The notes under the pieces: model-generated
Database searches by the model: none
What the model was told of the DNA's origin: nothing
Seen by the model: only the letters and a program-made list of their open reading frames with translations
Shown: piece after piece, positions 3,555 through 26,560 of the stretch
How positions within the stretch are numbered: position 1 is the stretch's first letter
How the letters are laid out: each line of letters opens with the position of its first letter
Assembly: GCA_013150915.1 (NCBI GenBank)
Contig: JAADJE010000007.1
Coordinates: 1 to 35,459, forward strand
Length of the DNA stretch: 35,459 nucleotides
Reading direction: 5' to 3'
Source: Gammaproteobacteria bacterium
Lineage (GTDB): Bacteria; Pseudomonadota; Gammaproteobacteria; BMS3Bbin11
Made by a program: the position numbers and the translations under genes

Positions 3555-4649
3555 ATGAACAGTAAAACATCGGCCACTCGCTGGGTGCGACAAATAATCC
3601 AGCAGCAAAACAGTTACCACGCGTCGCCCTCAGGTGACTTCATCAGGCTCGATGCGATGGAAAACCCCTGGTCAATGCCGAAAGCGCTGGAACAGTCCTG
3701 GCTCGATACCCTTATTGACCTGCAGCTGAACCGCTATCCGGACTCAGTTGCGATTGAGCTTGTCCAGCGTCTACGGGCCGTGATGGAAATCCCTGACGAA
3801 TCAGCCATCATGCTGGGCAATGGCTCGGATGAGTTGATCCAGGCCATACTGATGGCTATAGCCGGTAATGGCCGGACAGTACTTGCACCCGCACCGTCAT
3901 TTGTTATGTACGAAGTGTTGGCGCGGGCATGTCGTTTGTCTTATGTTGGCGTGCCGTTGCGGCAGAATTTCACGCTGGATATGCCTGCTATGCGTAGGGC
4001 GATCAACACCCATCAGCCTGCAGTCATATTTCTCGCCTCGCCAAACAACCCGACCGGTACGGTTTATCAGCAGGCGGAAATTGAAGAAATACTCAATCTG
4101 GCGCCAGGACTGGTTGTAGTGGACGAGGCCTACCACCCTTTCGTCAGGCCGGAAAGTGAAAGCGTTATCGCTCGATTAGCTGACAACCCCGATCTTATTG
4201 TAATGCGTACCCTGTCCAAGGTCGGCCTGGCCGGTATACGCCTCGGGCTTATTGCTGGCCACGCTGACTGGATAAGCGAACTGGATAAACTGCGATTGCC
4301 CTACAATATCAACAAGCTGACCCAGGCAACGGCTTCCTTCGCACTTGACCATTGGCAGGTATTTCAGGATCAGATTGGTGAAATTTGTCGTGAGCGCGAC
4401 CGGGTTTATGCTTCCCTATCATCCATCGAGGGTATTGAGGCATGGCCGAGTGATGCAAACTTTATCCTATTCAGGATATCCGATGATGGAGCTACGGCTA
4501 TCCATGCTCAATTACAGGCGCGGGGTATTTTAATAAAATGCCTGCATCGTGCTGGCAGTGCAATGGAGAACTGTCTGCGTGTTACAGTGGGTCGCCCGGT
4601 TGAGAATGATGCCTTTTTAAAAGAATTGTCCGAATTGCTGTTGAGATGA
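3555..4649 (+). CDS. hisC: histidinol-phosphate aminotransferase HisC
   Basis: HisC is a PLP enzyme (class I/II aminotransferase fold) that converts imidazole acetol phosphate and glutamate to histidinol phosphate. The 364 residues show the N-terminal substrate region IRLDAMENPW, the cofactor motifs SPNNPTGT and VVVDEAYHPF, and the Schiff-base lysine Lys222 in MRTLSKVGLAGIRLG. The C terminus GSAMENCLRVTVGRPVEN carries the conserved carboxylate-binding arginine. Its start is the first ATG after a heptamer array, with no obvious ribosome site, so expression may depend on transcription and ribosomes arriving from hisD. A bidirectional terminator follows at 4670, so the first his block ends here. 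Confidence 0.97.
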   Translation: MNSKTSATRWVRQIIQQQNSYHASPSGDFIRLDAMENPWSMPKALEQSWLDTLIDLQLNRYPDSVAIELVQRLRAVMEIPDESAIMLGNGSDELIQAILMAIAGNGRTVLAPAPSFVMYEVLARACRLSYVGVPLRQNFTLDMPAMRRAINTHQPAVIFLASPNNPTGTVYQQAEIEEILNLAPGLVVVDEAYHPFVRPESESVIARLADNPDLIVMRTLSKVGLAGIRLGLIAGHADWISELDKLRLPYNINKLTQATASFALDHWQVFQDQIGEICRERDRVYASLSSIEGIEAWPSDANFILFRISDDGATAIHAQLQARGILIKCLHRAGSAMENCLRVTVGRPVENDAFLKELSELLLR

Positions 4650-4669
4650 AAAGAAAAAAAGGCAGAAAA

Positions 4670-4706
4670 AAACCACCCGCCTTATCTATTCAGGCCGATG
4701 GTTTTA
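4670..4706. terminator. bidirectional terminator between hisC and the acidic-tail gene
   Basis: AAACCA (4670-4675) pairs with TGGTTT (4699-4704) and GCCT (4679-4682) with AGGC (4692-4695), with a small internal loop. There is an A-run on the left and a T-rich run on the right. It lies between two convergent genes and could serve both. Confidence 0.6.
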
Positions 4707-4776
4707 TTGCCTCCTGTGCAGACTTCTGCTGCAAATAAACGTTGTTACTGCAATAAACCTTCTTTCTGCTGAAGCC

Positions 4777-5436
4777 TTAAGATGATGTTCCTTCTGGCAT
4801 GTCTACCTCGTTATCGTCTTCTACCTCATTTTCGGTTTCCACTTCATTTTCATTTTCTACTTCATTCTCGTCGTCCATTTCATTTTTGGCCACATCATCA
4901 CTTTCACTGTCATCATTGATAGATGAGGGGTCGGAAGTATTTGATGAATCTGACTGACTGGATGAGTTGTCACTGGAACTGGAGCCACTACCACTTGCTG
5001 CTGCCATCACGCCGATGCCACCGACAGCGGCTACGCCCGCCAGTAATTGTGTTGCAGCAATTCCACCCGTTACGAGCACGCCATTGATGTAGGTTTTTTC
5101 GATAGAACTAATCCCCGTAAGCTTGAGATCCATCAGGCCAAAGTGGATATCATTAGGCGCGTTTTTACTTCCAACCATACCAAACTGCACATCAATCAGT
5201 GCCGGGCGTGACCTGAAATAGGTAAAGAGTGAGCCGGCACGGTCAGTAGATATGCGTGTCTGACCAAAACGAAAGCCCACTACAGACCTATCCATTTTGG
5301 GTGCAGAAGTTTGATTGCTAAGTGGAATATTGAGATACAGCATACCCACACGTTCAACCTCTGTTTCAAATGCCAGGGCCTGGCTAGCTGTAAATGAAAG
5401 CGCTGTGATCGCTGCAATTTTAATAGATGTTTTCAT
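4777..5436 (-). CDS. exported protein of unknown function with acidic repetitive tail
   Basis: I do not recognise the family. From the preferred start the product has 219 residues. It begins with a signal peptide (MKTSIKIAAITALSFTASQALA), followed by a globular part of about 100 residues and a hydrophobic, Gly/Ala-rich segment (LVTGGIAATQLLAGVAAVGG). Then comes a Ser-rich linker and a strongly acidic tail built from imperfect NEVE-type units. The ATG at 5436 is chosen over an in-frame GTG at 5451 because a GGAAG ribosome site lies just upstream of the ATG. The gene is divergent from the QseB-like regulator, and its promoter contains a PmrA/QseB-type box (5565-5581). I infer it is a target of that system and acts in the periplasm or envelope. 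The acidic tail could bind cations, but nothing here proves it. Confidence 0.75.
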   Translation of the reverse strand: MKTSIKIAAITALSFTASQALAFETEVERVGMLYLNIPLSNQTSAPKMDRSVVGFRFGQTRISTDRAGSLFTYFRSRPALIDVQFGMVGSKNAPNDIHFGLMDLKLTGISSIEKTYINGVLVTGGIAATQLLAGVAAVGGIGVMAAASGSGSSSSDNSSSQSDSSNTSDPSSINDDSESDDVAKNEMDDENEVENENEVETENEVEDDNEVDMPEGTSS

Positions 5437-5548
5437 GTTTTCTTCCTTCACACAAGAGTGAGATATTTCTCCAACAGTAAAAATTAGTTATCCATATTAC
5501 AGCCGACAGCGGCTGGTTGACAGGTAAAACCTGTTGTCCGTTAGGCAT

Positions 5549-5581
5549 ATTTTAGTCCTTGTTTCTTAAAATACCCTTAAG
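5549..5581 (-). promoter_or_regulatory. predicted promoter with PmrA/QseB-type box
   Basis: On the - strand, CTTAAG-N5-TTTAAG (5581-5565) fits the known PmrA-box consensus YTTAAK-N5-YTTAAK exactly. TAAAAT (5554-5549) follows as a -10, which places the box over the -35 position, the usual arrangement for activation by OmpR-family regulators. It faces the acidic-tail gene. Read from the + strand it is CTTAAA-N5-CTTAAG, so the regulator gene at 5738 could also be autoregulated. Confidence 0.6.
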
Positions 5582-5737
5582 AAATCAGTAAAATCCGATG
5601 AAAGTGATAAAAATATTGACTGGTGGGGAAAATACAGCTGTTGTCGGTTCCAGCATATTTACCCACCCCTTCAACATGATAGAGTTACGGGCAGCTCTTT
5701 TCAATGGTTAAACAGGGACACATATCCGAGCAATTAA

Positions 5738-6397
5738 ATGAGAATATTACTTGTAGAAGACAATGCCCTGCTGGGCGATGCCGTTTGTGTTGGTCTGACA
5801 CAGGCAGGGTTTACTGTTGACTGGGTTAAGGATGGAAGAGCGGCCCTAACAGCGGCCTCCGCTGGCTGGCATGACCTGGTTGTCCTGGATCTCGGGCTGC
5901 CGGGCATTTCAGGTCAGCAGGTGTTGTCTGCCTTACGTAAGGAGGCAAATGATATTCCGGTACTGATATTGACGGCCAGAGATACCGTTGATCAGCGCAT
6001 AGCCGGGCTGGATGCCGGTGCAGATGACTACATGACCAAGCCGTTTGACATGGACGAACTTTGTGCCAGGGTCAGGGCACTGCTGCGCCGACGGGCTGGC
6101 AGGGCGGCGCCTTTGCTTAATCATGGAGACATTATTCTTGATCCGGCAGCCCATGTCGCCACACAGCAGGGTGAATCGGTCAATCTATCACACAGAGAAT
6201 TCAGTATGCTGCAGCTTTTATTGGAGAGCGCCGGGCGGGTGCTTTCACGCCAGCATTTTGAAGAGAGTCTCTATGGGTGGGATGAGGAGATAGAGAGCAA
6301 TGCGATTGAGGTACATATCCATCATCTGCGAAAAAAGTTGGGCTCAGACCTGATTCGCACGGTTCGAGGTGTGGGCTATACGATAGACAAAGTATAG
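5738..6397 (+). CDS. OmpR-family response regulator, QseB/PmrA-like
   Basis: This is a 219-residue DNA-binding response regulator. Residues 1-115 are a receiver domain with acidic pocket Glu7/Asp8, phosphoacceptor Asp51 (VVLDLGLPG), Thr79 and Lys101 (MTKPFD). Residues about 125-219 are an OmpR-type winged helix. The recognition region LYGWDEEIESNAIEVHIHHLRKKLGS, described here in parts (WDEE, SNAIEVHIHHLR), closely follows QseB and PmrA. Its partner kinase begins 159 bases downstream. The only strong PmrA-type box I see is in the divergent promoter at 5565-5581, so the secreted acidic-tail protein is the best candidate target. The signal sensed cannot be read from the sequence. Confidence 0.93.
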   Translation: MRILLVEDNALLGDAVCVGLTQAGFTVDWVKDGRAALTAASAGWHDLVVLDLGLPGISGQQVLSALRKEANDIPVLILTARDTVDQRIAGLDAGADDYMTKPFDMDELCARVRALLRRRAGRAAPLLNHGDIILDPAAHVATQQGESVNLSHREFSMLQLLLESAGRVLSRQHFEESLYGWDEEIESNAIEVHIHHLRKKLGSDLIRTVRGVGYTIDKV

Positions 6398-6556
6398 GGC
6401 CTTCTATTAATCCATGACTATTCATTTTCCATCCCAAATCGTCCCTCTTTGTGTTAATAATCTTCGCAATAGCCAGGCTCACGCGTGATTCTTTCCTTGA
6501 TATGAACGTTTTGGAATGCAATCTGATCTACCCAGAATTAATAGAGGCACCCTAAA

Positions 6557-7924
6557 ATGACGCAGTCTATCCGGCTTCGACTTGTTTTTTTCATCGGCGG
6601 TTTAATGCTGCTGGTCTGGGGCGGGATCACGGCCAATAGTATTTATTCTGCACGGAAAGAGGTACAGGAACTTTTTGATGCACAACTCGCACAATCTGCC
6701 AGGGTGCTGCATGCCCTGATCCAGCATGAAATGGCAGAGGCCACGATAGAAGGGAAGAATGAAAATGCGATAGTGCTGGATGTATCGGCGCCCGGACATT
6801 TCTATGAAAGCAAGATTTCTTTTGTCGTCAGAGACAACAACGGTAAAGCCTGGTTTATGTCACAGCAGGCACCGGATTTTAGCATCGCAGCAGGGACCAC
6901 AGGATTCATTGATATCACGGGTGCCGATGATAAGTGGCGTGTGTTTGTAATGCGAGACAAGGTCGTCAATTTTACGGTAGAAGTTGCCCAGAATTATCAC
7001 ATACGTAATGAATTGGTTATGGAAATTACCCGCCACGTATTCTGGCCTTTCATCATTGCCCTGCCCTTACTTATGCTGATGATCTGGATAGGCGCAGGTC
7101 GTAGTCTCAGGCCGCTTGAGGCGATAGCGGATGAGGTGCGGCATCGCAACCCGCAGAATCTTGAGCAGATTGATGTGGCCAGGGTGCCGGCGGAAGTGCT
7201 GCCTTTATTTGTTTCCTTAAACACCTTATTGAGTCGTTTGAAGAAGGCATTAAGTAATGAACGTGGTTTCACATCGGATGCGGCACATGAGCTGCGAACC
7301 CCCCTGGCTGGAATCAAGGCCCAGGCCCAGGTGGCATTGAGAGCATCTAATGAAAAGGAAAAGGATGCGGCGATCAGGCATATCATCATCGGTATCGATA
7401 ATACTGCACACCTGGTGCGTCAGATGCTGATGCTGGCCAGGCTGGATCCAGACATCCCCAACAGAAAATTTGTACAACAGAATTTAACGCGTATTCTGAC
7501 AGAAGTGGCTGCTGATGTCGCAAGTCTGGCAGTGGAAAAGCATGTTGATCTGGAAGTGCGGCAGGCCGCAGGTGATATCAAAATAAGGGGACAGGCAGAA
7601 GCCCTGTCCGTGCTGGTCAGAAACCTGATTGATAATGCCGTCCGCTATACACCCGCAGGTGGCTGGGTAAAAGCAAGCATCTCCCGCGCACCGGAGGGTG
7701 TGATACTAAAAATTATGGACAGTGGGCCGGGGATAGCGGAAGAGGATAAAGGCAGAGTTTTTGACCGCTTCTATCGTGGCCTCGGCACCGGTCAGACCGG
7801 TAGCGGTCTGGGACTGTCCATCGTGCAGCGCGTTGTGGATCTGCATAATGCGAAAATAGACTTCCAGACAGGAAGAGGGAATGGAAAGGGGGTGACGGTT
7901 AAAGTGGTGTTTCCTTTAAAATGA
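6557..7924 (+). CDS. sensor histidine kinase, QseC/PmrB-like
   Basis: This 455-residue inner-membrane kinase has a first membrane helix near residues 8-28 and a periplasmic sensor region of roughly 130 residues. A second helix (WPFIIALPLLMLMIWIGAG) lies near residue 165, followed by a short HAMP-like linker. The H-box FTSDAAHELRTPL carries the phosphorylated His244, and the ATPase domain has an N-box (NLIDNAVRYTP, Asn356/Asn360) and a GSGLGLSIV glycine box. Topology and motifs follow QseC, whose SDAAHELR box and TGSGLGLSIVQR end are very similar. An AGAGG ribosome site lies 9 bases before the ATG. The 159-base gap from the regulator is unusual for such a pair; I see no gene or clear hairpin in it. 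Confidence 0.92.
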   Translation: MTQSIRLRLVFFIGGLMLLVWGGITANSIYSARKEVQELFDAQLAQSARVLHALIQHEMAEATIEGKNENAIVLDVSAPGHFYESKISFVVRDNNGKAWFMSQQAPDFSIAAGTTGFIDITGADDKWRVFVMRDKVVNFTVEVAQNYHIRNELVMEITRHVFWPFIIALPLLMLMIWIGAGRSLRPLEAIADEVRHRNPQNLEQIDVARVPAEVLPLFVSLNTLLSRLKKALSNERGFTSDAAHELRTPLAGIKAQAQVALRASNEKEKDAAIRHIIIGIDNTAHLVRQMLMLARLDPDIPNRKFVQQNLTRILTEVAADVASLAVEKHVDLEVRQAAGDIKIRGQAEALSVLVRNLIDNAVRYTPAGGWVKASISRAPEGVILKIMDSGPGIAEEDKGRVFDRFYRGLGTGQTGSGLGLSIVQRVVDLHNAKIDFQTGRGNGKGVTVKVVFPLK

Positions 7925-7925
7925 A

Positions 7926-7960
7926 GATCCAGGATCCAAGGCCAAAGATGACAGATCAAA
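7926..7960 (+). repeat. heptamer array after the QseC-like gene
   Basis: Five 7-base units in register: GATCCAG, GATCCAA, GGCCAAA, GATGACA, GATCAAA. The first begins right after the kinase stop. The units resemble those before hisC. Confidence 0.65.
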
Positions 7961-8022
7961 AAAATAACTTATTGACGTCAGTTACGATAGTTTATAGATT
8001 TTCGGTTTTTCAAGATTTCGTT

Positions 8023-8064
8023 TTTCAACTTTCAACTTTCAACTTTCAACTTGTAACTTGTAAG
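8023..8064 (+). repeat. heptamer array upstream of hisB
   Basis: Six 7-base units: TTTCAAC four times, then TTGTAAC and TTGTAAG. It ends 47 bases before hisB. The same TTTCAAC unit recurs at 35312 and, inverted, at 23117. Confidence 0.85.
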
Positions 8065-8111
8065 CGCTTTTCTGCTAAAATTCCCGAAACCATCAGTTTT
8101 GGTAAAAACTT

Positions 8112-8705
8112 ATGAATAAACGCACCGCCGAGGTATCCAGAACCACCCTCGAAACGCAGATCAGTATCACCCTGAATGTAGACGGAACCGGACGCTCGTC
8201 TTTTTCTACCGGTGTGCCTTTCCTGGAGCACATGCTGGAACAGATCGCCCGTCATGGACTGATTGATCTGGATGTTCAGGCGAAGGGTGATTTGCATGTT
8301 GATGCACATCACCTTGTTGAAGATATTGGTATTGTACTTGGCCAGGCCTTTAAGCAGGCGCTGGGGGACAAATGCGGCATGACCCGTTATGGCCACGCTT
8401 TTGTGCCATTGGATGAAGCCCTTAGCCGCGTGGTGATTGACTTTTCCGGTCGCCCCCAGATCGAGTATCGGGTGGACTTCCCACGTGCCAGTGTCGGTGA
8501 ATTTGAAACTGACCTGATACACGAATTTTTCCAGGGTTTTTGCAATCATGCGCTGGTGACCTTGCATATCGATAATCTCTGTGGTGATAACTCACACCAT
8601 ATCGCCGAGACGGTATTCAAGGCCTTTGGACGTGCCCTGCGCATGGCGGTAGAACCAGATGCTCGTATAGGCAACGCAATTCCATCGACCAAAGGAAGCC
8701 TCTGA
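8112..8705 (+). CDS. hisB: imidazoleglycerol-phosphate dehydratase HisB (monofunctional)
   Basis: HisB dehydrates imidazole glycerol phosphate to imidazole acetol phosphate, a manganese-dependent step. At 197 residues it is the single-domain enzyme, without the N-terminal histidinol-phosphatase domain fused to it in E. coli. The two metal-binding signatures of the family are present, HHLVEDIGI near residue 75 and [20 protein letters not shown] near residue 160, plus the FLEHML motif. It opens the second his block. The gene begins about 50 bases after a TTTCAAC heptamer array, and hisH follows after 31 bases. Because the phosphatase domain is absent, a separate histidinol-phosphate phosphatase must be encoded elsewhere. 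Confidence 0.98.
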
Positions 8706-8736
8706 GCAGAGCCGGCCAGTAATCGGGATATTAAAA

Positions 8737-9408
8737 ATGACCAGTATCATTGTTGTCGATTTCGGCATGGGCAACCTGCGTTCAGTTGCTAAAGCCTTCG
8801 AGCATGTTGCGCCTGGAGCCGATGTAATGATTTCAGCTGATGTTAGTGATATTCGTGCTGCAGATCGGGTCGTGTTGCCCGGACAGGGTGCGATAGGTGG
8901 TTATATAAAGGCCTTATACGATACTGATCTGGAGCCAGCCGTTCTCGATGCGGCGGCAAATAAGCCCTTCCTGGGTATTTGTCTGGGGCAGCAGGTCTTG
9001 TATGAATCCAGTGATGAGCATGGTGAAGAGGGCGAGAGTGTTAAAACGTTAGGTCTTTTCAAGGGGCATGCAAAACATTTCACCGACGTCTCCAGCGATC
9101 CACAGGCAATGATCAACCCGCAAACGGGTCATCAGTATCCCATCCCACACATGGGGTGGAACCAGGTAAAACAGACGATGAAACATCCGTTGTGGCAGGG
9201 TATTGCCGATATGGCGAGGTTTTATTTTGTCCACAGCTATTGTCTACAATCAGAGAATGAAGCCGATGTGGCAGGTGTCACCGAATACGGCGTGAACTTC
9301 ACCTCAGCGACAGCCCGCGACAACATTTTTGCCGTACAGTTTCACCCGGAAAAAAGCCAGCATGACGGGCTTAAGCTGCTGGAGAATTTTGTAAACTGGA
9401 AAATCTAG
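8737..9408 (+). CDS. hisH: imidazole glycerol phosphate synthase, glutaminase subunit HisH
   Basis: HisH is a class I glutamine amidotransferase that releases ammonia from glutamine and passes it to HisF for ring closure. The 223-residue protein has the nucleophile Cys82 in GICLGQQVL and the His203/Glu205 pair in QFHPEKSQ, completing the triad. The N terminus IVVDFGMGNLRSV is typical. It sits between hisB and hisA, as is usual. Eleven bases after its stop a REP-like inverted pair begins, separating it from hisA by 153 bases. Confidence 0.97.
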   Translation: MTSIIVVDFGMGNLRSVAKAFEHVAPGADVMISADVSDIRAADRVVLPGQGAIGGYIKALYDTDLEPAVLDAAANKPFLGICLGQQVLYESSDEHGEEGESVKTLGLFKGHAKHFTDVSSDPQAMINPQTGHQYPIPHMGWNQVKQTMKHPLWQGIADMARFYFVHSYCLQSENEADVAGVTEYGVNFTSATARDNIFAVQFHPEKSQHDGLKLLENFVNWKI

Positions 9409-9419
9409 TTGAAAGGAAG

Positions 9420-9499
9420 GTAGGAGCGCCGCCTCGGCGCGATGTTTTTTCATGGGCTTGATAGTATCTTAAACAATCGCGCCGAGGCGACGCTCCTAC
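9420..9499. repeat. REP-like inverted pair (BIME-like) between hisH and hisA
   Basis: Two 24-base arms (9420-9443 and 9476-9499) are inverted copies with one mismatch, separated by 32 bases. Each arm, read inward, starts GTAGGAGCG and contains its own small palindrome (GCGCCG...CGGCGC), so it can fold as two small hairpins or one long one. The GTAG head and paired arrangement match the known RAYT-associated REP/BIME class. A translation reading frame runs through it into hisA, but that is not the real hisA start. Confidence 0.8.
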
Positions 9500-9561
9500 A
9501 AATTTACAAAGACACTCTTGAAAGTCCAATTTATGAAGAGCAAGAAAAACAAAGGAAAAAC

Positions 9562-10308
9562 ATGCTAATCATCCCCGCGATTGATCTGAAAGACGGCCAG
9601 TGTGTGCGCTTGCGTCAGGGACGCATGGAGGATGATACAGTATTTTCAGATGACCCTGTCAATATGGCAGGGCGTTGGGTTGATGCGGGTGCGCGGCGGC
9701 TGCATATCGTTGATCTTAACGGTGCATTTGAGGGCCGTCCAGTCAATGAGCAGGTGATACGGGATATCGCGTCGGTCTATCCTGATTTACCCATACAACT
9801 GGGTGGTGGTATTCGTGACGCGGCCACGGCTGAAGCCTATATTGAAGCCGGTGTAGATTATGTCATCATCGGGACGATGGCGGTGCGTGAGCCAAAGTTT
9901 GTCAAAGCCTTATGCAGGGCCATCCCCGGTCATGTGTATGTGGGTCTCGATGCCAAAAATGGCATGGTGGCGGTTGATGGCTGGGCCAAAGACTCCGGTA
10001 TTGATATCACAGAACTGGCCCGCCAGTTCGAAGATGAGGGCATAGAGGGTATCATCTACACCGATATCTCCCGCGACGGCATGATGCAGGGCGTTAATGC
10101 CGAGGCAACGGCACGCCTGGCAGAGGCTTTGACTGTCCCGGTTGTGGCATCCGGCGGTATCACTACCCTGGCCGACATCGAACGCCTGCTGGAACATGAA
10201 GCGACGGGTATCAATGCCGCTATCATCGGCCGTGCCTTATACGAAGGTTCGTTAGATCTGGCCGAGTGCCAGCAATTAGCCGACCCGCCTGACAGAGCAG
10301 GAAAATAA
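9562..10308 (+). CDS. hisA: HisA, ProFAR isomerase
   Basis: HisA opens the ribose ring of ProFAR by an Amadori rearrangement to give PRFAR, the substrate of HisHF. The 248-residue (beta/alpha)8 barrel starts [20 protein letters not shown] with catalytic Asp8. Both half-barrel phosphate sites are visible (QLGGGIRD near residue 80 and VVASGGI near residue 195). I choose ATG 9562 because it has a purine-rich AAAGGAAAAA site just upstream and gives the family N terminus. The reading frame extends 40 codons further up to 9442, but those codons are the REP pair and its flank. hisF begins one base after the stop codon. Confidence 0.97.
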
Positions 10309-10309
10309 T

Positions 10310-11086
10310 ATGGGACTGGCAAAAAGAATTATTCCCTGCCTTGATGTGCGTGACGGGCGCGTAGTCAAAGGCGTGCAATTCGTTGATATCCGCGATGCCG
10401 GCAATCCGGTAGAGGTGGCAGCGCGCTATGATGAACAAGGTGCAGATGAAATCACTTTTCTTGATATCACCGCCTCTTCGGACAATCGCGATACCATCCT
10501 GCATGTGGTAGAGGAGGTGGCCAGCACGGTATTTATTCCACTGACGGTGGGAGGTGGTATACGTGTGCTGGATGATGTGCGCCGTATGCTGAACGCGGGT
10601 GCGGATAAAGTGGGTATCAACACCGCGGCTGTGTTTAACCCTGAATTTGTTAAACAGGCCTCCGGTCACTTTGGCTCACAGGCAATCGTGGTATCCATCG
10701 ATGCCAGGCAGGTAGAAGCCGGTGATAAGCCCCGCTGGGAGATTTTCACCCACGGTGGCCGTAGGGGTACAGGCCTGGATGCCTTGCAATGGGCAAAGAA
10801 AATGGCCGATTATGGTGCCGGAGAAATTTTACTGACCAGTATGGATAGAGACGGCACCCGGGATGGTTTTGATCTGGCCCTGACACGTGCGGTCTGTGAT
10901 ACTGTCGATGTGCCGGTAATTGCTTCCGGTGGCGTGGGCAACCTCGATCATCTGGTCGATGGTGTGAGTAAGGGACACGCCGATGCCGTGCTGGCCGCCA
11001 GCATTTTTCATTTTGGTGATTACACTGTGCAGCAGGCAAAGCAAAAGATGCATGATGCCGGTATAGAAGTAAGAATTACGGAATAG
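10310..11086 (+). CDS. hisF: imidazole glycerol phosphate synthase, cyclase subunit HisF
   Basis: HisF uses ammonia from HisH to turn PRFAR into imidazole glycerol phosphate plus AICAR, linking histidine and purine synthesis. The 258-residue barrel has the acid/base aspartates Asp12 ([12 protein letters not shown]) and Asp131 (VSIDARQ), equivalent to Asp11 and Asp130 of Thermotoga HisF. The phosphate-binding loops TVGGGIR and IASGGVG are present. It follows hisA immediately. A small perfect hairpin (AATAGCC/GGCTATT, 11082-11097) covers its stop codon, followed by a GTAGGAGCGACG fragment at 11098-11109 that looks like a broken REP. Confidence 0.98.
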
Positions 11087-11129
11087 CCCTGGCTATTGTA
11101 GGAGCGACGGACACAAAAGAGGTAAGCTA

Positions 11130-11516
11130 ATGGCGGATGACTGGTTGGATGAGGTTAAATGGGCGCCAGATGGCCTGGTCCCGGTCATTGCACAGGATGC
11201 TGAAACAGGCAAGTTGCTGATGATGGCCTGGATGAACCGTGAGGCACTGCAACTGACGGCCGATGGCGGTCATGCCGTATACTGGTCGCGCTCACGCGGT
11301 AAATTGTGGCGCAAGGGTGAAGAATCGGGTCACCATCAGGTAGTGAAAGAACTGCGTCTGGACTGCGATAATGACGCAATATTGATGAAAGTCGAGCAAA
11401 AGGGCGGGATAACCTGCCATACTGGTCGAGAAAGCTGCTTTTACCAGCGCTACGAAAATGGCCGCTGGCAGAGCGTGGAGCCGGTACTGAAAGACCCGAA
11501 AGAGATTTATAAATGA
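11130..11516 (+). CDS. hisI: phosphoribosyl-AMP cyclohydrolase HisI
   Basis: HisI opens the adenine ring of PR-AMP, the third step of the pathway, using zinc and magnesium. The 128-residue protein contains [22 protein letters not shown], the magnesium-binding DCDNDAIL and the cysteine cluster [10 protein letters not shown]. It is the single-function enzyme; the pyrophosphohydrolase is the separate hisE downstream, rather than an HisIE fusion. An AGAGGTAAG ribosome site precedes the ATG. The 69-base gap to hisE is almost filled by an inverted repeat. Confidence 0.97.
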
Positions 11517-11571
11517 TTTCACCACAGAGGGTCCTTAACCTTTAATTTTTCCTCTGATCACCGTGGTGAAA
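11517..11571. repeat. inverted repeat between hisI and hisE
   Basis: TTTCACCAC (11517-11525) pairs with GTGGTGAAA (11563-11571), and CAGAGG inside the left arm pairs with CCTCTG inside the right, with a 7-base bulge. It starts directly after the hisI stop. It resembles the CACAGAGG-type palindromic repeats seen again near 33582 and 35227 more than a terminator, since no T-run follows. Confidence 0.55.
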
Positions 11572-11585
11572 AACAGGTAGTTTGA

Positions 11586-11903
11586 ATGAATGACATTCTT
11601 GGACAATTGATGGAGGTACTGGAACAAAGGAAGTCGGTATCTGCTGACAGTTCCTATGTTGCCGGCCTGTACGACAAGGGGCTCGATGCTATACTGAAGA
11701 AGATTGGCGAAGAAGCCACAGAAACCGTGATGGCGGCAAAAGACGGTAATCGGCAGAAGATTGTTTATGAAACAGCTGATTTGTGGTTTCATACCCTGGT
11801 CATGTTATCTCACCAGGGATTGACGGCAGAGGATGTGCTGCAGGAGTTGGCGAGACGTTTTGGTTTGTCCGGTCTTGAAGAAAAGGCAAACAGGCCCACA
11901 TAG
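11586..11903 (+). CDS. hisE: phosphoribosyl-ATP pyrophosphatase HisE
   Basis: HisE hydrolyses PR-ATP to PR-AMP and pyrophosphate, the second step of histidine synthesis. The 105-residue all-alpha MazG-like protein has the metal-binding motifs [15 protein letters not shown] and [13 protein letters not shown]. It is the last his gene of the block; the tat genes follow on the same strand after 110 bases, an arrangement seen in many gammaproteobacteria. That gap contains a perfect 20-bp palindrome, which could attenuate or protect the transcript. Confidence 0.97.
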
Positions 11904-17143: not shown

Positions 17144-17581
17144 TTACCATCCCTCTTTGTCCTGCGCGTTTACTCGAACCTGTTTACGTCCGGTGGACCA
17201 CAGTTTGTACCCACTCACTGCATCATTTTTCTGATCACCGAGACTTTGTGATTCAAGAACAAAACAATTTACAAGACCGCAGCCCTCTGGATTGTTGACT
17301 CTTATCCGGTAATGAACAGCCCCCGATCCAGACCGGACATTATTCCATGCTCGTTCAGGGTAGCCGAGCTGCCTTAAATTAGTCGTATAGTTGGCATTTT
17401 TTGCATAATAATTTTCCAGTTTTTGCGCGGCTTCCATCAATGCCTGTTGAGCCTCTACACGGCGACTTACACGGATTGAGTTGTGATAGCTGGGGTAGGC
17501 AATTGCGCTTATAATTGCCACGATCGTCATGGCAATGAGGAGCTCAATCAGCGTGAATCCTTTGCCATCTGATTTGTTCAT
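17144..17581 (-). CDS. pilE: type IV minor pilin PilE-like (operon 1)
   Basis: This 145-residue prepilin is a PilE-type minor pilin, made as a precursor and cut by the PilD peptidase before entering the pilus or its priming complex. The leader is 8 residues (MNKSDGKG), followed by mature FTLIELLIAMTIVAIISAIAYPSYHNSIR (shown in parts: FTLIELLIAM; IAYPSY) with Phe1 and the key Glu5. A compact C-terminal domain contains two cysteines (PEGCGLVNCFV) that could form a disulfide. It is the last gene of operon 1 and its ATG overlaps the pilY1 stop by 4 bases. It resembles the pilE-type gene that ends pilY1 operons, not the main PilA pilin. Confidence 0.93.
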   Translation of the reverse strand: MNKSDGKGFTLIELLIAMTIVAIISAIAYPSYHNSIRVSRRVEAQQALMEAAQKLENYYAKNANYTTNLRQLGYPERAWNNVRSGSGAVHYRIRVNNPEGCGLVNCFVLESQSLGDQKNDAVSGYKLWSTGRKQVRVNAQDKEGW

Positions 17582-20500
17582 TTTTGTGGGTAAGTTGGAG
17601 GGTATTGATCAATCACCTCTTCCCAGCTAAGCGGGAAAAACCTGTTCGGTAGGCGGAATGTGTTTCCAGGACCAATGATGGTGAGCCCTTTACCGTTACT
17701 GTCATTATTGGCAGGGGAAGTAATAATCACTGGTGTGGGTGGATATCCCGATGACCGCAATTTCTTTGACCGGTCTGAAGCATCGAGATCATTATCTTCG
17801 TTTATATCCAGAACCGCCGTCCCGTCAATAAGCTTGATAGCATAAAGTGAATTATCACCCATCGATGATGTTGCAGCGCATATATCTTCACTTTCGGTAC
17901 GTCTGGCCTGAAAGCTTGTAAAGCTGATAACAGAGTTGAAAATGCGGGCTTTTGAAAATACTTTCTGCTTCACACCGTTATCCATCAGATTAATATACCA
18001 GCCGCTCTTGCCGGCAAGTTCTGTGCCGGCCTGAATGATTTCTGATTCACTCCCCTCCTGTATCAGGTTGTTGCTGGCATCGTACAGCTCATCTTCACCA
18101 ATGCTGATGTATTCTATTTCACCCTTGCTATTCCTGGGGGCCGTCCAGACAGCGGTGTCTTTAATCATGTAAAAGCGGTCAGTAACGGTATTTTTCAGCG
18201 GCTGAGGGATAAAACCGGAGCCGATGAGAATGGCAAGAAAGCGCTCACTTCCTCTGGAATAATAGGCGACTTCCGGCGCATTGAAAAAGCGTTTGAAACC
18301 CTCTCCCCTGTCATTGATATCTGCAATCATTCCACCACTGACCGTAGTATCCGAAAAAGCACTATCGGGGATATCAATTCTGAAAATACGGCCCCCAACA
18401 TCCGTCGCATACAGGCGATCAGTGACACCATTGCTGTTAATATCAACAGGAAGGATACCGATAATGCCATTTTTCATAGAGCCTATCTGCAGGCTGAAAT
18501 TGCCGCTATCTGTATCAGTGTCAGCGCTAAAATAAGCAAGTCGCTCACCATTAATTGCATCGATAACAAAAATAGCATTGCCATAATTATCATCAGTACG
18601 TACTGATGCCTTGTCCTGTGAGGGGTCATAACCACCACCAAAAACAAGCACGTCCTTGCCTGCGCTACCGTTCAGTTCCATATTAAGGAACCGGAGGTCA
18701 GACCAGGTCTGACCCAGGCGGCTAAAATTTGCAGAGCCAGTAGCATTGATCTGCCAGGCTAATTTAGGGGCGGTTCGATTGCTGATATCGAGAGCATATA
18801 ATGATCGACCGCCTCGGCGCATACCGAATACGGCGAATTTTCTGGTAATGCCATTGTCGACTGCTTCATAAACGATTAACGGCCCATCCAATCCATAATG
18901 TGGAATGCTGGACGGTGGGTTTCTTTTCAGTGCAGCAAGATCGGCCAACAGTTGCTGGGGTATAAAGGCCCATAGCTCATCGCCGCCACCCGGTGTGTTC
19001 CCACCGGTATTGAAGGCATGCAATATGCCTTCTGTGGTGTTAATCAACACCACACTATTTTCATTTTTATAGTTAACGACAACAGGCTTTGTATGAAGCG
19101 GGGCACCCATGGGCATGACCTCAGCCCTATCCCTACCCTGATACCTGCCCTGCCAGTTCACCCAGTTCAGTATTTTCAGTCGCTCATAAGCTGTGTTGAC
19201 CCCCAGCATTGATGGGCGAATTCTGCTGTTATCAACCTGAACACGATTCGGGCTGACAGAGGATGCTGCGGGAATATAGGTCAGATCTTTGCTTTCCCCA
19301 TCCAGCCAGGTATAGAGTTGACGCGTTGTACCTTTAGACATTCTTGAGCTTGCGCCATCCTGTTGTGTCTCAGCGGTTCCCCAATAGTCCTGTAAACCTT
19401 TTTGAAACATAAGGTCGTCATTAAAAACATCCCTATCATTCTGGTCACGTATAAATTGAAAACCCTCTTCGTCTATCCCTGTTTTATATTTCAGAAGATT
19501 GCCTTTCCAGAATATTCCCACCTCGGGACTGAATACCGGGACATAGATAAAACCACCACTGATAACCACCTTGTCTGGTCGGTATGGGATAGCAGGAGGC
19601 GTATAGCTGTAGGGTATGGATGTGTTCACCTCATCGATAATTTTGCTTAGGGCCTCTGTGATAGTAGATGCCGTTTGTCCCCGGTAATACGTGCCCCCAC
19701 CCCTGTAGGCGATAGTTTTCAAAAACATCTCTGCTTCTGAATTTTCAGGCGTTTGAATACCTATTGTGTGTGTAAGGACATGCTGTTTCCCCTTCCAGCC
19801 GGGGTAGCTTTCCTGCGGCATCAGGTCGGTGCCGTAGGCCCACTGGGCAATTTCCTGAGCACATAGACCTGGCTGGTTCTCGGTAGATGAAAAGGGTGCC
19901 GTGGTATCGCACGGCGTACCCTGGTATTCAGTCTTTATCACACGGTCAGTCCTGCCTGGCGTTCCAGGCGTCAGGAGAACCATAGCATTCGGTCGGCACC
20001 AATTGTCTTCTGCCTTGTTTTGTATAGCTTTAAGTGGTGAGGGGTACTCTTTTGGTGCTGAAACCTGTGATTCAATAATACTATTTTTATACCATCGAAC
20101 GGCCTCACTGAGGGCTTTTACAACAGGTGAACTCCCTTCGGGATTCAATTCTTCCACTGCCGATACAATCTTTGATTTGCCGTTTTTCCCCCCGATATAT
20201 TTAAAGTCTGAAAGGACGCGTATACGCGTCTCATCCTCGCTGTCAGTATTTGATGATGTATTCGAAGACATATTTGAATTAAAAGAGATTAGGGCAGCAT
20301 TAATATTCGTGTTGCTATCTTTATTCAGGATGCCCCCTTCATCAATCAATGCGGACAGTAACTTACGGCGATGACTGCCTTGCATATTTTTTGATTCATC
20401 TATGATAAGCAGTATGTTTGATGGAAGGGGAGTCACTGGGGGTGACAAGTAGATTTCTATATCATCGGCTTGCAGGGCAAATGAAAAGTACAGCAAAATA

Positions 20501-20583
20501 AGAAATACACCTGATTTTCCCACCCCCCGTCTAGTCACTCTTTTTTTCTTATGAAGGCTTGGCCGTTTACTGTTTTTCATCAC
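17578..20583 (-). CDS. pilY1: PilY1-type pilus tip protein, small form (operon 1)
   Basis: PilY1 caps the type IV pilus and acts in adhesion, mechanosensing and control of retraction. This 1001-residue copy has an unusually long basic start before the signal helix (VFLILLYFSFALQA). A VWA-like N-terminal region of about 300 residues and a C-terminal PilY1/PilC beta-propeller follow, with phrases such as VLINTTEGILHAFNTGG and FAVFGMRRGGRSLYALDI. A calcium loop of the DxNxNxxxD form sits at Asp714-Asp722, and a second acidic loop near Asp926-Asp937. The VWA metal site is altered: residues 62-66 read DESKN where DxSxS is expected. It overlaps pilX by 17 bases and pilE by 4. It has no insert like that in the second copy. 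Confidence 0.93.
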   Translation of the reverse strand: MMKNSKRPSLHKKKRVTRRGVGKSGVFLILLYFSFALQADDIEIYLSPPVTPLPSNILLIIDESKNMQGSHRRKLLSALIDEGGILNKDSNTNINAALISFNSNMSSNTSSNTDSEDETRIRVLSDFKYIGGKNGKSKIVSAVEELNPEGSSPVVKALSEAVRWYKNSIIESQVSAPKEYPSPLKAIQNKAEDNWCRPNAMVLLTPGTPGRTDRVIKTEYQGTPCDTTAPFSSTENQPGLCAQEIAQWAYGTDLMPQESYPGWKGKQHVLTHTIGIQTPENSEAEMFLKTIAYRGGGTYYRGQTASTITEALSKIIDEVNTSIPYSYTPPAIPYRPDKVVISGGFIYVPVFSPEVGIFWKGNLLKYKTGIDEEGFQFIRDQNDRDVFNDDLMFQKGLQDYWGTAETQQDGASSRMSKGTTRQLYTWLDGESKDLTYIPAASSVSPNRVQVDNSRIRPSMLGVNTAYERLKILNWVNWQGRYQGRDRAEVMPMGAPLHTKPVVVNYKNENSVVLINTTEGILHAFNTGGNTPGGGDELWAFIPQQLLADLAALKRNPPSSIPHYGLDGPLIVYEAVDNGITRKFAVFGMRRGGRSLYALDISNRTAPKLAWQINATGSANFSRLGQTWSDLRFLNMELNGSAGKDVLVFGGGYDPSQDKASVRTDDNYGNAIFVIDAINGERLAYFSADTDTDSGNFSLQIGSMKNGIIGILPVDINSNGVTDRLYATDVGGRIFRIDIPDSAFSDTTVSGGMIADINDRGEGFKRFFNAPEVAYYSRGSERFLAILIGSGFIPQPLKNTVTDRFYMIKDTAVWTAPRNSKGEIEYISIGEDELYDASNNLIQEGSESEIIQAGTELAGKSGWYINLMDNGVKQKVFSKARIFNSVISFTSFQARRTESEDICAATSSMGDNSLYAIKLIDGTAVLDINEDNDLDASDRSKKLRSSGYPPTPVIITSPANNDSNGKGLTIIGPGNTFRLPNRFFPLSWEEVIDQYPPTYPQK

Positions 20584-21076
20584 TCAGGCTCCTTTCTAAA
20601 TCCCTGTTATCTACCAATAGCAGCGTTTCCCGGTTGTGCGTTCTCGTATTGCTGCCATCCACTTCACCGTAGGCATCCGCACGGTAAATCAATGTTTTGA
20701 TATCCATGCTGTAACCGGAAAGTTTATATTCTCCGGGGGCACTTTCCCGGATGAACGTTAAATTCAGGTCGGCAGAAACGGCAGGCTGTCCGTTTGTCGC
20801 TGCAAATGAAATGTAATCAATCGTTTTTATGGGGCCGCTGGTAGCCGTAGGTGTCAGTACCTGTGGACGATCACTGGTTAATTTTACAAAGACACTTTCA
20901 GCGGCCTGAAAGCTTAATTGCTTATGCTGGTAATTCGCTGCAATGCGGCTGTCTATATTTGTTGCGCGCATGGCACTGATACTCAGCAGTGAAATTACCG
21001 CCAGTAAAATCATACTGATAACCAGCGCGACGCCCTGTTGTAACTGAATGCGTGCTTGTCGACTAAATCGGCTCAT
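20567..21076 (-). CDS. pilX: minor pilin assembly protein PilX (operon 1)
   Basis: PilX is part of the minor-pilin complex that primes pilus assembly and presents PilY1. The 169-residue protein starts with a basic leader ending QQG and a hydrophobic helix VALVISMILLAVISLLSISAM, followed by the family's TNIDSRIAANYQHKQLSFQAAES region. As usual in PilX, residue 5 after the cleavage site is not glutamate. Its start overlaps pilW by 4 bases and its end overlaps pilY1 by 17, so the genes are tightly coupled. Confidence 0.9.
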   Translation of the reverse strand: MSRFSRQARIQLQQGVALVISMILLAVISLLSISAMRATNIDSRIAANYQHKQLSFQAAESVFVKLTSDRPQVLTPTATSGPIKTIDYISFAATNGQPAVSADLNLTFIRESAPGEYKLSGYSMDIKTLIYRADAYGEVDGSNTRTHNRETLLLVDNRDLERSLSDEKQ

Positions 21077-21858
21077 TGGGCTTGTAGAACAGTATTCAGA
21101 TTACGTAAGTAGATAGTCGTGGAAAATACCTTGTATAGGTATTTGTCACCGGCCAGTACTGTGTACTCCAGGCCCGGTAATTGTAATAAAGTGTCTGTCT
21201 TTGCACGCATTTCTACGGGCAGACTATAATTCGATGAGAATACGAGTAGTCCCACATGAAAGGAGACGATACGTTGCCAGGCGGTGGACTGGCTGGCAGT
21301 AATGGCGATTTTCTCTATTTCCTTTGCCGTTAGATAACGGTTGGCATAGCCATCATTTGTGTCATCAAAACCATACAGGATTTTCATCATTTTAATGCCG
21401 GAAACCAGTGGTTGAGATCGACCAGTGTCTAATCGACACTTCAACTGATTGTCACGAATCAGCAGGTTTATGGTTGCAGGCGCGTCTGTATTTTTGCGAT
21501 CGATATAACGACTACAGGTCGTGCCACGCCGATAACGAACAGCGATGGCATCTGATTTTAATCCAGCACCTTCTACCGTCCCGCTGCGGCCCACAGGGGC
21601 AATCGCACTTGATGCCCTGTTACCCGCTTCACGGGCATCTATACCCATCCCTGCCATGGAAAGCGTTCGGCGTAATTCCTGTAGTGCAAATCGCCCATTT
21701 TCGTTTACAGATGAGAGTGCAGCACGTGCGATAAATGTCCTCTTACTCTGCAGGTAAACCCTGCCGGCGACGGCAATGATGAACATGGCAATCGTCATCC
21801 CTATCATCAATGATGTGAGGGTCTGGCCTGTACTGTACGTGTGGACGGGGGAAGTCAT
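21073..21858 (-). CDS. pilW: minor pilin PilW with degenerate prepilin site (operon 1)
   Basis: This is a 261-residue PilW-family minor pilin, recognised by its place in the operon and by NENGRFALQELRRTLSMAGMGI after the N-terminal helix, as in other PilW proteins. The prepilin region is abnormal: after the leader MTSPVHTYSTG the mature end would be QTLTSLMIG, with Gln at position 1 and Ser at position 5. The PilW of operon 2 has the normal FTLVE. Both neighbours are joined by 4-base overlaps. It may be processed poorly, or enter the complex without the Glu5 contact. Confidence 0.85.
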   Translation of the reverse strand: MTSPVHTYSTGQTLTSLMIGMTIAMFIIAVAGRVYLQSKRTFIARAALSSVNENGRFALQELRRTLSMAGMGIDAREAGNRASSAIAPVGRSGTVEGAGLKSDAIAVRYRRGTTCSRYIDRKNTDAPATINLLIRDNQLKCRLDTGRSQPLVSGIKMMKILYGFDDTNDGYANRYLTAKEIEKIAITASQSTAWQRIVSFHVGLLVFSSNYSLPVEMRAKTDTLLQLPGLEYTVLAGDKYLYKVFSTTIYLRNLNTVLQAQ

Positions 21859-22403
21859 AAGTCCTGTGCTATCCCCGGCATCACTGTCATGGACAAGACG
21901 TCCCTCTTTTCGCCATCAGCGCTGTTTCGTGTTCTTGTCAGCCAATTAATCTGAATCTGATAGACTCCGGCGGCTTGGGAAGTCACCATCAATTGACCGC
22001 CGGGCAGTGAATTCCTTACCCCGTTTGAGCAGCGAATTTCCCACAGGTCGTAGGCGGCGAGTTGTTCAGGCGTACAGATAGAGATGTCTGCAACGTCTAT
22101 ATTCACCGGGTTCATCGAGCAAATTACAGGGGGCTGAGTGCGGCAATAATCTGAATTATCGACAGGCAGGGCCGAAGAAAGATAACTGTCTGAACCGGGT
22201 TTGTTGGCACGCATCCTTTCTGTTAGCGAGCTGGCAAAATCAGAGGCTCTACCACGGTATTCAGCATTGCCTGCCCCTTGTAGAGAGGTCAATTGTAAGG
22301 CAGAGATGCCCAGCAGCCCTATGCCGAGAATAACAGCGGCAATCAGTACTTCAAGTAAGGATGTCCCTTCGTTTACAGCTCCTTTCGCAGGGTAGTCATT
22401 CAT
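21855..22403 (-). CDS. pilV: minor pilin PilV (operon 1)
   Basis: This 182-residue PilV-type prepilin has a leader ending NEG and a mature start TSLLEVLIAAVILGIGLLGISALQ; the short pieces TSLLEVL and GIGLLGISALQ are typical of PilV/PilI-like proteins, with Glu5 kept and Thr in place of Phe1. The conserved TSLTERMRANKPG-like region follows the helix. It overlaps pilW by 4 bases and lies 11 bases after fimT. Confidence 0.9.
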   Translation of the reverse strand: MNDYPAKGAVNEGTSLLEVLIAAVILGIGLLGISALQLTSLQGAGNAEYRGRASDFASSLTERMRANKPGSDSYLSSALPVDNSDYCRTQPPVICSMNPVNIDVADISICTPEQLAAYDLWEIRCSNGVRNSLPGGQLMVTSQAAGVYQIQINWLTRTRNSADGEKRDVLSMTVMPGIAQDL

Positions 22404-22414
22404 CAGTCAGCCCC

Positions 22415-22966
22415 TCAATAACAAAGAATACTGCGGCCATCAGGCAGGGTTCTACTCAGCCTGGGTCTGCCGGTAGAGGCGATGATCACAGCACGATTGG
22501 AATCATCGTGATTCTGTATACAGAAGCGTAAAGTCGTATTTGAGTTCCATGCGCGACCCGTTGGCAGATAAGCAAGAACCCTGCGTGAGCGGGAGGAGGA
22601 ATGAATTCTTATGTTGTTGTCTCCACCCTGAAAATAACGAAGCACTTCTTCGTTAGCATTACGTCGCCTGTTTCTGTCATTATCGACAAAAACGATATAC
22701 CCCTTTGCCCATTGTTTGTAGTCTGCGACACAAAGCAGCCCATCAATACTCGGGCAAAGTGCAACGACTTGCTCCCGTTTTACGGCTTCTGACCGTGCCT
22801 GGTATAAATGTGATAGAAAGAGATTTACGGATGTACTGATACGCGTGCGAGCACTTAACCACTGAAAACTGGGGACAGCGATAGTCAGTAAAATACTGAC
22901 AATCGCAAGTGTTGTGACGAGTTCAACCAGCGTATAGCCGGGAAAATCGGTGATCTGGAAATCCAT
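22415..22966 (-). CDS. fimT: GspH/FimT-type pseudopilin (operon 1)
   Basis: This first gene of operon 1 encodes a 183-residue FimT/FimU/GspH-type minor pilin. A short leader ends in Pro-Gly, followed by YTLVELVTTLAIVSILLTIAVPSF (YTLVEL; LTIAVPSF), with Glu5 present and Tyr in place of Phe1. The conserved LSHLYQARSEAVKREQVV motif of FimT proteins follows. ATG 22966 is chosen because GAGGAG lies 6 bases upstream; an in-frame TTG two codons earlier overlaps that site. Its promoter region is shared, back to back, with the two-component system at 23214. Confidence 0.9.
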   Translation of the reverse strand: MDFQITDFPGYTLVELVTTLAIVSILLTIAVPSFQWLSARTRISTSVNLFLSHLYQARSEAVKREQVVALCPSIDGLLCVADYKQWAKGYIVFVDNDRNRRRNANEEVLRYFQGGDNNIRIHSSSRSRRVLAYLPTGRAWNSNTTLRFCIQNHDDSNRAVIIASTGRPRLSRTLPDGRSILCY

Positions 22967-23016
22967 TTCCAACTCCTCTTTGATGTGTCATCAGCCTGAT
23001 CCCTGGCTGAGAGTCA

Positions 23017-23213: not shown

Positions 23214-23894
23214 ATGCGCGTTATGGTAGTCGAAGATGATCAGTCTGTGGCGGACTATCTTGTAAAAGGCCTGAGAGAGCAGGGCTATAGTGTTGATCAT
23301 GCGACAGACGGGGGCGAAGGACTGCTGCTTGCCAACACTGAAAACTACGATATTATCGTTATCGACCGCATGCTTCCTTCAGTGGACGGACTGACCATTG
23401 TCAAAAGTATTCGTGCAGCCGGTAAAACGACACCCATTCTTATCCTTAGCGCCCTTGGTGAGGTGGATGACCGTGTGGAGGGATTAAACGCCGGTGCCGA
23501 TGACTATCTCTCCAAGCCTTTTGCCTTTAGCGAGCTAATGGCCCGGATTAACGCACAGATGCGACGCAATACGGCCTCGACGTCAAATGTTACTGAGTTG
23601 AAGGTAGCCAACCTTCGGCTTGACCTGCTGACACATACTGCTACACGTGCAGGGCAGGTGATAGAATTGCAGCCACGTGAGTTCAACATGTTGGAATACC
23701 TGATGCGCAACGCCGGACAGGTGATTACACGCACCATGCTGCTTGAACATGTGTGGGATTATCAATTTAACCCACAAACCAATGTTATTGATGTGCTGGT
23801 CAGTCGTTTACGCAGGAAGATCGATAATGGGTTTCCCCAACCCTTACTGCACACTATCCGTGGAGCGGGATACATGATCAATGAAACCCGTTGA
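23214..23894 (+). CDS. OmpR-family response regulator between the pilin operons
   Basis: This 226-residue regulator has a receiver domain (Glu7/Asp8/Asp9, phosphoacceptor Asp51 in IVIDRMLPSVDG, and Lys in YLSKPFAF) and a winged-helix domain with LQPREFNMLEYLMRNAGQVITR and VDVLVSRLRRKI-type motifs. It is closer to the CusR/CopR/IrlR group than to QseB. Its end overlaps the kinase gene by 14 bases. It sits between two divergent minor-pilin operons, so both are natural candidate targets, but I found no shared binding site to prove it. An AGAGGA ribosome site precedes the ATG. Confidence 0.93.
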   Translation: MRVMVVEDDQSVADYLVKGLREQGYSVDHATDGGEGLLLANTENYDIIVIDRMLPSVDGLTIVKSIRAAGKTTPILILSALGEVDDRVEGLNAGADDYLSKPFAFSELMARINAQMRRNTASTSNVTELKVANLRLDLLTHTATRAGQVIELQPREFNMLEYLMRNAGQVITRTMLLEHVWDYQFNPQTNVIDVLVSRLRRKIDNGFPQPLLHTIRGAGYMINETR

Positions 23895-25487: not shown

Positions 25488-26027
25488 ATGATAAACCAAT
25501 TAAAAATAATAGAAAAAAGCACCGGGTTTACGCTAGTAGAATTGGTAGTGACTTTATCGGTTGCAGCGATATTACTCGCTGTGGCCGCTCCCAATTTCAG
25601 GCAGCTGATCCAGGATAACCGTCTAGTTGCCGGTGTCAATGAGCTGTCCGGTTCGATTAATGTGGCCCGAAGTGAAGCAGTTAAACGGGGCACTAGAGTC
25701 GTTGTTTGCAAAAGCGCCAATGGCTCAGATTGTGTGAGTACCGGTAACTGGGAGCAGGGCTGGATCATCTTTGTCGATAACAATAACGACGCGACACGTG
25801 ATACAGGTGAAGCCGTGTTGCGCATCCATGAAGCCGTCGAAGGGAATGTCACCATGACAGGTAACGGTAATGTGGCAGATTATATTTCTTACGTGCCTGA
25901 AGGGCGGGCCCAGACAACAGCTGGGGCCTCACAGGCCGGCACCATCAGTGCCTGTCTTTCAGGGAAACAGCGGGTTATGCAACTCACGTTTGTCGGTCGC
26001 CTCAAGATCACCCGGGGGACATGCTAA
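25488..26027 (+). CDS. fimT: GspH/FimT-type pseudopilin (operon 2)
   Basis: This 179-residue FimT/GspH-family prepilin has the leader MINQLKIIEKSTG and the mature start FTLVELVVTLSVAAILLAVAAPNF (FTLVEL; LAVAAPNF) with Phe1 and Glu5. The conserved LSGSINVARSEAVKRGTRVVVCKS region is followed by a GspH-type C-terminal beta domain (WEQGWIIFVDNNNDATRD; VPEGRA). It is the first gene of operon 2. The same motifs are present in the operon 1 copy but the sequences are well diverged, so the operons are old duplicates or separate acquisitions. The stop overlaps the pilV start. Confidence 0.93.
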   Translation: MINQLKIIEKSTGFTLVELVVTLSVAAILLAVAAPNFRQLIQDNRLVAGVNELSGSINVARSEAVKRGTRVVVCKSANGSDCVSTGNWEQGWIIFVDNNNDATRDTGEAVLRIHEAVEGNVTMTGNGNVADYISYVPEGRAQTTAGASQAGTISACLSGKQRVMQLTFVGRLKITRGTC

Positions 26028-26554: not shown

Positions 26555-26560
26555 TGTCCT

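Follow-up and report, generated by a model that had tools for sequence, protein, structure and literature searches.

Gene X and its place in the histidine cluster

The window, by which we mean the whole stretch of 35,459 nucleotides that was analysed (contig JAADJE010000007.1 of a gammaproteobacterial assembly), contains a gene here called X. ORF positions and Pfam and NCBIfam searches confirm an earlier note on this DNA in that X is transcribed divergently from a QseB/QseC-like pair. The features of the locus are as follows:

4777-5436, minus strand: gene X, an ORF of 219 amino acids with ATG at 5436, encoding an exported protein without Pfam or NCBIfam family
5371-5436, minus strand: signal-peptide-like N-terminus of X, residues 1-22, read by eye (MKTSIKIAAITALSFTASQALA-FE, with an ALA-FE junction)
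5080-5370, minus strand: conserved domain of X, residues 23-119 (GMLYLNIPL ... GFRFGQTR ... RPALxDVQFGMV ... LKLTGISS)
4993-5079, minus strand: Gly/Ala-rich hydrophobic segment of X, residues 120-148, a possible membrane anchor
4780-4992, minus strand: Ser-rich and then acidic tail of X with NEVE repeats, residues 149-219
5549-5554, minus strand: -10-like hexamer TAAAAT, 10 bases past the box; TANNNT in 5/5 orthologous promoters
5565-5581, minus strand: PmrA/QseB-type box CTTAAG-N5-TTTAAG, from a motif search and an alignment of orthologs
5676-5704, minus strand: alternative promoter-like match facing X, TTGAAA-17-TATCAT, from a promoter scan (10 of 12 consensus bases)
5738-6397, plus strand: QseB/PmrA-like response regulator of the OmpR family, 219 amino acids, from domain and family searches
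6557-7924, plus strand: QseC-like sensor kinase, 455 amino acids, with a 2CSK_N sensor domain

A GTG start at 5451, which would add five codons to X, is also listed among the ORFs. X and the divergent pair split a histidine biosynthesis cluster, with hisC on one side and hisB on the other (the his gene names were read off the translations by us). X is present in five of the seven genomes of the genus, and an ortholog of QseC is found in the same five; the two genomes without X are 60% and 71% complete. No match to X was found in a genome of another genus in the same family (G007, 81% complete). In all five carriers X is divergent from qseB inside the his cluster. For G002 this arrangement was judged by the lengths and order of the ORFs together with the QseB and QseC matches, and in G005 a contig break lies inside qseB, so that one contig carries X with 25 qseB codons and another the remainder. 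Two further loci (L002 and L003) encode X proteins identical to those of G006 and G001, respectively, and each protein was counted once.

Other observations on the window concern its surroundings. The his cluster (3555-11903) is broken at the same site by X and the pair in the five X-carrying genomes, in G005 across the contig break. Between qseB and qseC lies an element of about 160 bp (6395-6556) with inverted GGGCACCTCTATTRAT-like ends, which is MITE-like. Matches to this element, partial copies counted, number 22 in the genome of the window (G000), 42 in G002, 36 in G006, 29 in G004, 13 in G003, 1 in G005 and 1 weak match in G001. The qseB-qseC junction of G006 also holds a copy, and that of G002 an end-like motif. 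A second two-component pair of OmpR type is found at 23214-25260, flanked by two divergent sets of minor-pilin-like genes (17144-22972 on the minus strand and 25488-32953 on the plus strand), each of which includes one large PilY1-like protein by eye. Rfam at gathering scores gave no matches in the window.

Protein X and its relatives

The N-terminus of X reads by eye as the signal peptide that the earlier note had proposed. X is not taken for a lipoprotein: no Cys follows the signal peptide in the five orthologs, and none of the five proteins contains any Cys. Residues 1-148 are under constraint, with dN/dS of 0.08-0.24 in ten pairwise comparisons (dN 0.07-0.17, dS 0.50-1.81). The estimate is restricted to these residues, the tail being mostly not computable and left unused. 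The hydrophobic segment reaches a 19-residue Kyte-Doolittle maximum of 1.78-1.92 in the five orthologs. If it spans the membrane the tail would be cytoplasmic, otherwise periplasmic.

The acidic tail with NEVE repeats is present as claimed, with 25 Asp and Glu, one Lys or Arg and no His in residues 149-219, but the repeat itself is the version of this genome only; others carry HEDEHENE or runs of Asp. The five ortholog tails contain 24-44 Asp and Glu and 1-3 Lys and Arg, and their numbers of His are 0, 4, 6, 9 and 10. The tail is thus conserved as acidity and not as sequence.

No Pfam or NCBIfam family was found for X when the full protein and its orthologs were searched. In Pfam to E 1 the matches were NMO, PARP and PFF1_TM, all sub-threshold and located on the hydrophobic segment and tail, and they vanish once the tail is removed. 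PDB sequence searches gave one match each (E 1.6 and 0.44), which were taken as chance. Structure prediction returned no usable model, either for the full length with five sequences (mean pLDDT 39) or for the mature domain with three (35). X was also considered as a YgiW-type BOF protein (PF04076) and rejected: BOF did not appear to E 1, nor to E 10 for the trimmed orthologs, and hhalign gave a probability of 6% against YgiW. There is no BOF match in the window's own genome, in a search whose control rings in E. coli. The Spy/CpxP domain is the mark of a CpxP-type kinase inhibitor, and membership of X in that family was likewise rejected, the Pfam search to E 1 giving only the three sub-threshold matches above.

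Searches of the class yielded one remote relative (L053, E 3.2e-4), which was then added to the profile. It was kept from ten weak class matches, among which L060 and L062 were rejected by eye; two other weak matches to X (L008 and L009) were dropped as matching the low-complexity part only. The widened profile matches 30 of 53 genomes in the order of L053, its own genome and one match with an internal stop included. In the class 6 of 369 genomes match (four of the genus, two of the order of L053), and in the phylum 3 of 398 (the window's own genome, a weak one and one with internal stops). Another possible remote relative in the phylum (L107 in G648, 1339-1989, E 2.4e-5) combines a Gly/Ala segment with a domain that looks exported.

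Alignment shows that the wider family keeps GMLYFN...HxFGFRxDR...PAxFDxK...GIDY and a hydrophobic segment at the end. Relatives of the other order have a charged or Ala/Glu-rich linker first and the hydrophobic end last; the order is inverted in the window's genus, where the acidic stretch closes the protein, behind the hydrophobic segment. The pattern Gly-x3-Gly-x3-Gly/Ala past residue 100 occurs in 21 of 28 members (in L085 within the linker), but the five proteins of the genus lack it. Scattered weak family or PDB matches turned up for single wider-family members. These searches point to a family without coverage in the copies of Pfam and NCBIfam that were used. Some wider-family genes adjoin rpoD-like or AhpC-like genes by eye (L053, L064-L092).

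The earlier note had proposed a search for the same gene trio in other genomes. In the genus the trio holds, X lying beside the pair in five of seven genomes, so that the outcome which the note had named as refuting, a lack of conservation of X next to the pair, did not arise there; in the other order neither the pair nor the box was found beside members of the family. By tblastn at E 1e-5 no QseB or QseC match was found in the flanks of the relatives, about 1.5 kb per side and shorter at contig ends, and the box was found within 300 bases upstream of none of 26 relatives (duplicates L049-L052 and L063 and fragments L079, L081, L088 and L089 left out). In the genomes and flanks covered, only this genus ties X to the pair.

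Box, promoter and regulator

The box of CTTAAG-GGTAT-TTTAAG is the single match to YTTAAK-N5-YTTAAK in the window, where 0.05 are expected and at least one occurs in 5 of 100 shuffles. It lies, as the earlier note had described, at the -35 position of a candidate promoter facing X; the -10-like TAAAAT follows after 10 bases. A -35 hexamer with a 17-bp spacer from TAAAAT would fall within the box. The plus strand also carries the looser HTTAAD form, and because TTAA is palindromic the box has a reading on each strand and alone gives no direction. Taken alone, a single box motif means little and is no more than chance: the strict pattern occurs 8 times in the window's own genome against 12 for a reversed control pattern, and 56 against 59 times over the seven genus genomes. 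Because the genus-wide count is near the control level, no larger box regulon is claimed.

Comparison of the orthologous promoters shows that the box is nevertheless a site conserved beyond chance. The strict form is found in 4/5 of them and the fifth (G006) starts with GTTAAG, that is, with G for Y in position 1. NTTAAK-N5-YTTAAK-N10-TANNNT occurs in 5/5 and in 0 of 2000 shuffles of each sequence, a figure which is descriptive, the TANNNT pattern having been chosen after inspection of the five sequences. When the five intergenic regions are aligned, 9 of 12 hexamer columns are invariant compared with 39 of 214 other ungapped columns (Fisher p 6e-5). Each of the five spacer columns varies, and the eight columns of the TTAA cores do not.

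A promoter scan of 4600-5800 gave 2 promoter-like matches against 2.1 expected, and the box promoter of X is absent from its listing. The missing good -35 at the box promoter is expected of an activated promoter and proves nothing. One of the two matches is weak, on the plus strand and overlaps the box. The other is the alternative promoter-like match facing X listed above, and by eye a TAACTnTATCA block around its TATCAT hexamer is kept in 4/5 orthologs in the intergenic alignment. X may own this second promoter, or may have no need of the box, and our confidence in box-driven control of X is lowered because of this match.

Pfam domains place the pair in the OmpR family of two-component systems. 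The regulator consists of a receiver and a winged helix and the kinase of HisKA, HATPase_c and 2CSK_N, all five domains above the Pfam cut-offs; HAMP in the kinase is below its cut-off. The regulator scores 265.8 bits against the NCBIfam QseB family (NF007663, cut-off 345), the best of 106 families, and the kinase 311.5 bits against QseC (NF007664, cut-off 475), the best of 82. By the curated cut-offs the pair thus falls outside the QseB and QseC equivalogs, and its likeness to them in working does not fail thereby.

The residues by which Klebsiella pneumoniae PmrA contacts its box come from a docked model, as described in excerpts of PMC3973317. Among the contacts named in these excerpts, the regulator is identical at the same numbers for N188, H193, H195, R171, R198, R210 and G211, and has R for K153 and S for T187. 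Two residues suggested there for base specificity differ (N196 to H and E199 to K). E. coli QseB likewise has H193, H195 and H196. Among the 13 winged-helix (PF00486) matches in the window's genome, this regulator alone has the motif VHxHxLR.

A second conserved CTTAAG-N5-TTTAAG box was observed on the minus strand in two genomes (G000:C80:14313-14329 and G002:C15:41625-41641), 43 bases ahead of a gene for a small secreted protein that is PepSY-like by eye. After this gene follows another regulator of OmpR type, with a kinase in the G000 locus (L042), and cytochrome-like genes are divergent from it by eye. The regulator of this operon is without the two recognition histidines, and some other regulator may read such boxes.

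Relatives of QseC with E up to 1e-50 were found in 128 of 340 genomes of the class, four genus members among them. The upstream analysis took the 26 best-scoring loci outside the genus, of which 24 were usable (L123 has no QseB match and in L111 the regulator starts outside the locus). In 8 of these 24 loci, from eight different families, a pair of TTAA 11 apart lies upstream of qseB. Other distances from 5 to 40 occur in 0-2 loci each, and in 500 shuffles the pairs 11 apart gave a mean of 0.32 and a maximum of 3. The genes adjoining the QseB relatives vary between loci by eye. The spacing is enriched near QseB relatives while their neighbours vary, and therefore the box goes with the regulator class; the adjacent envelope gene looks exchangeable between lineages. 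Between ygiW and qseB, E. coli K-12 has TTAACAACTTCTTAA, with TTAA cores at the same spacing and a second half-site, on the ygiW side (GTTAAG), that is outside the strict consensus. Such a TTAA pair occurs in 26 of 200 shuffles of the 5-kb E. coli stretch that contains it.

Control of X and comparison with known systems

The earlier note had predicted X as a target of the QseB/PmrA-like system, and this part of it is probably right, because the box is kept in 5/5 promoters, the pairing of X with the system is kept, the regulator has PmrA-type residues and loci of QseB relatives show an excess of this spacing upstream of qseB. Judged from these sequence features, control by the adjacent pair is likely, and we favour with some reserve the reading that the regulator activates X directly, X thereby being an envelope protein made on demand. 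The kinase would sense a condition of the envelope and phosphorylate the regulator, two molecules of which would bind CTTAAG-N5-TTTAAG head to tail, covering the -35 position of a promoter without a good -35. The bound regulator would then recruit RNA polymerase to the TAAAAT 10 bases downstream. X would be exported and its domain of about 95 amino acids would be periplasmic, with the Gly/Ala segment probably holding the protein at the membrane. For the polyanionic tail the likeliest role is one of charge, binding cations or cationic molecules, or else that of a linker, and X would work beside its pair as ygiW does beside qseBC. Among the readings of its function, a charge-based role in the envelope is the one that we would test first.

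The same box could serve mainly the autoregulation of qseBC, with X expressed from another promoter such as 5704-5676 and retained next to the pair through inheritance. Both strands carry a reading of the box, the weak plus-strand match overlaps it, the alternative match faces X from upstream of the box in surroundings that are largely kept, and boxes upstream of other QseB relatives have different neighbours. We nevertheless regard this as rather unlikely, considering that N10-TANNNT towards X is kept in all five promoters whereas, by eye, three orthologs have an altered form of the window's plus-strand TAAAAT and a fourth has none that is recognisable. The promoter-like matches moreover are at the level of chance, and autoregulation is compatible with control of X. 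A different relation between X and the pair would make X a feedback or accessory partner of the QseC-like kinase, situated near the inner membrane like CpxP with CpxA or MgrB with PhoQ. The divergent layout of cpxP provides a parallel, X is co-conserved with the pair in all five carriers, and it appears exported by eye and is possibly membrane-held; accessory proteins of the envelope with an effect on kinases have been described (excerpts of PMC6075780 and PMC10576120). This role is possible though unlikely, since the family is found in so many genomes of the other order with no QseB or QseC match in the flanks and its domain seems independent of the kinase.

The composition of the tail also suggests that X could bind metals or other cations, the pair being a cation-responsive system: all five tails are strongly acidic with at most three Lys and Arg, and four of them have 4-10 His. 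The tail of the window is without His, the five proteins are without Cys, the tail sequence is barely conserved, acidic tails can be mere linkers and the sensor region of the kinase gives only 2CSK_N, so cation binding is to be considered improbable. A bolder proposal, which we judge to be just as improbable, places X in an as yet undescribed family from two gammaproteobacterial orders, its members exported, retained at a membrane and bearing charged linkers or tails. In this genus a QseB/QseC pair would have recruited the family into a dedicated envelope module, and the acidic tail would titrate the cationic stress sensed by the kinase and thereby tune the kinase. If control of X by the pair is true, a QseB/QseC pair with its box would be a reusable cassette in which the adjacent envelope output is swapped between lineages, and the X promoter would be a simple reporter of what such a pair senses outside enteric bacteria.

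Several known systems resemble this locus. CpxP is a divergently encoded exported protein controlled by the neighbouring regulator of CpxRA, and X is likewise divergent, of exported type and beside a regulator gene, but a Pfam search to E 1 gave nothing of CpxP type for it. The PmrA box regulons of Salmonella, Klebsiella and Acinetobacter share with the locus the TTAA half-sites with N5, and most of the PmrA contacts given in the excerpted source are found in the regulator. The site of Acinetobacter baumannii PmrA, upstream of pmrC and naxD, is TTTAAG-N5-TTTAAG according to excerpts of PMC10927774. In contrast to these regulons no larger one is visible here, the count of the motif being near that of the control.

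In Vibrio cholerae, excerpts of PMC5636140 propose the activation of one conserved periplasmic protein (vca0732) as a major function of VC1638-39, and describe VC1639 as needed for the high transcript level of a YgiW-type protein under polymyxin B. As far as these excerpts go, the likeness lies in a two-component system with a periplasmic protein as target, but vca0732 differs from X in being a BOF protein and in being encoded on another chromosome than VC1638-39.

The closest comparison is with ygiW-qseBC of E. coli and ygiW-preAB of Salmonella, in which the gene of a periplasmic-type protein is divergent from a QseB/QseC pair. E. coli QseB is 53% identical to the regulator over 216 amino acids and QseC 33% identical to the kinase over 452 aligned positions. 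In Salmonella, plasmid-expressed PreA, the QseB ortholog, raised ygiW 355-fold in a preAB mutant, as stated in excerpts of PMC2653508. As regards the control scheme, the earlier note's suggestion of an undescribed envelope-response module is not supported in view of ygiW-qseBC, which has the same layout and, between the genes, TTAA cores at the same spacing. The difference lies in the output: YgiW belongs to the BOF family and X aligns with it at the signal peptide only. The locus combines a familiar kind of control scheme with an unnamed output protein that is unrelated to YgiW.
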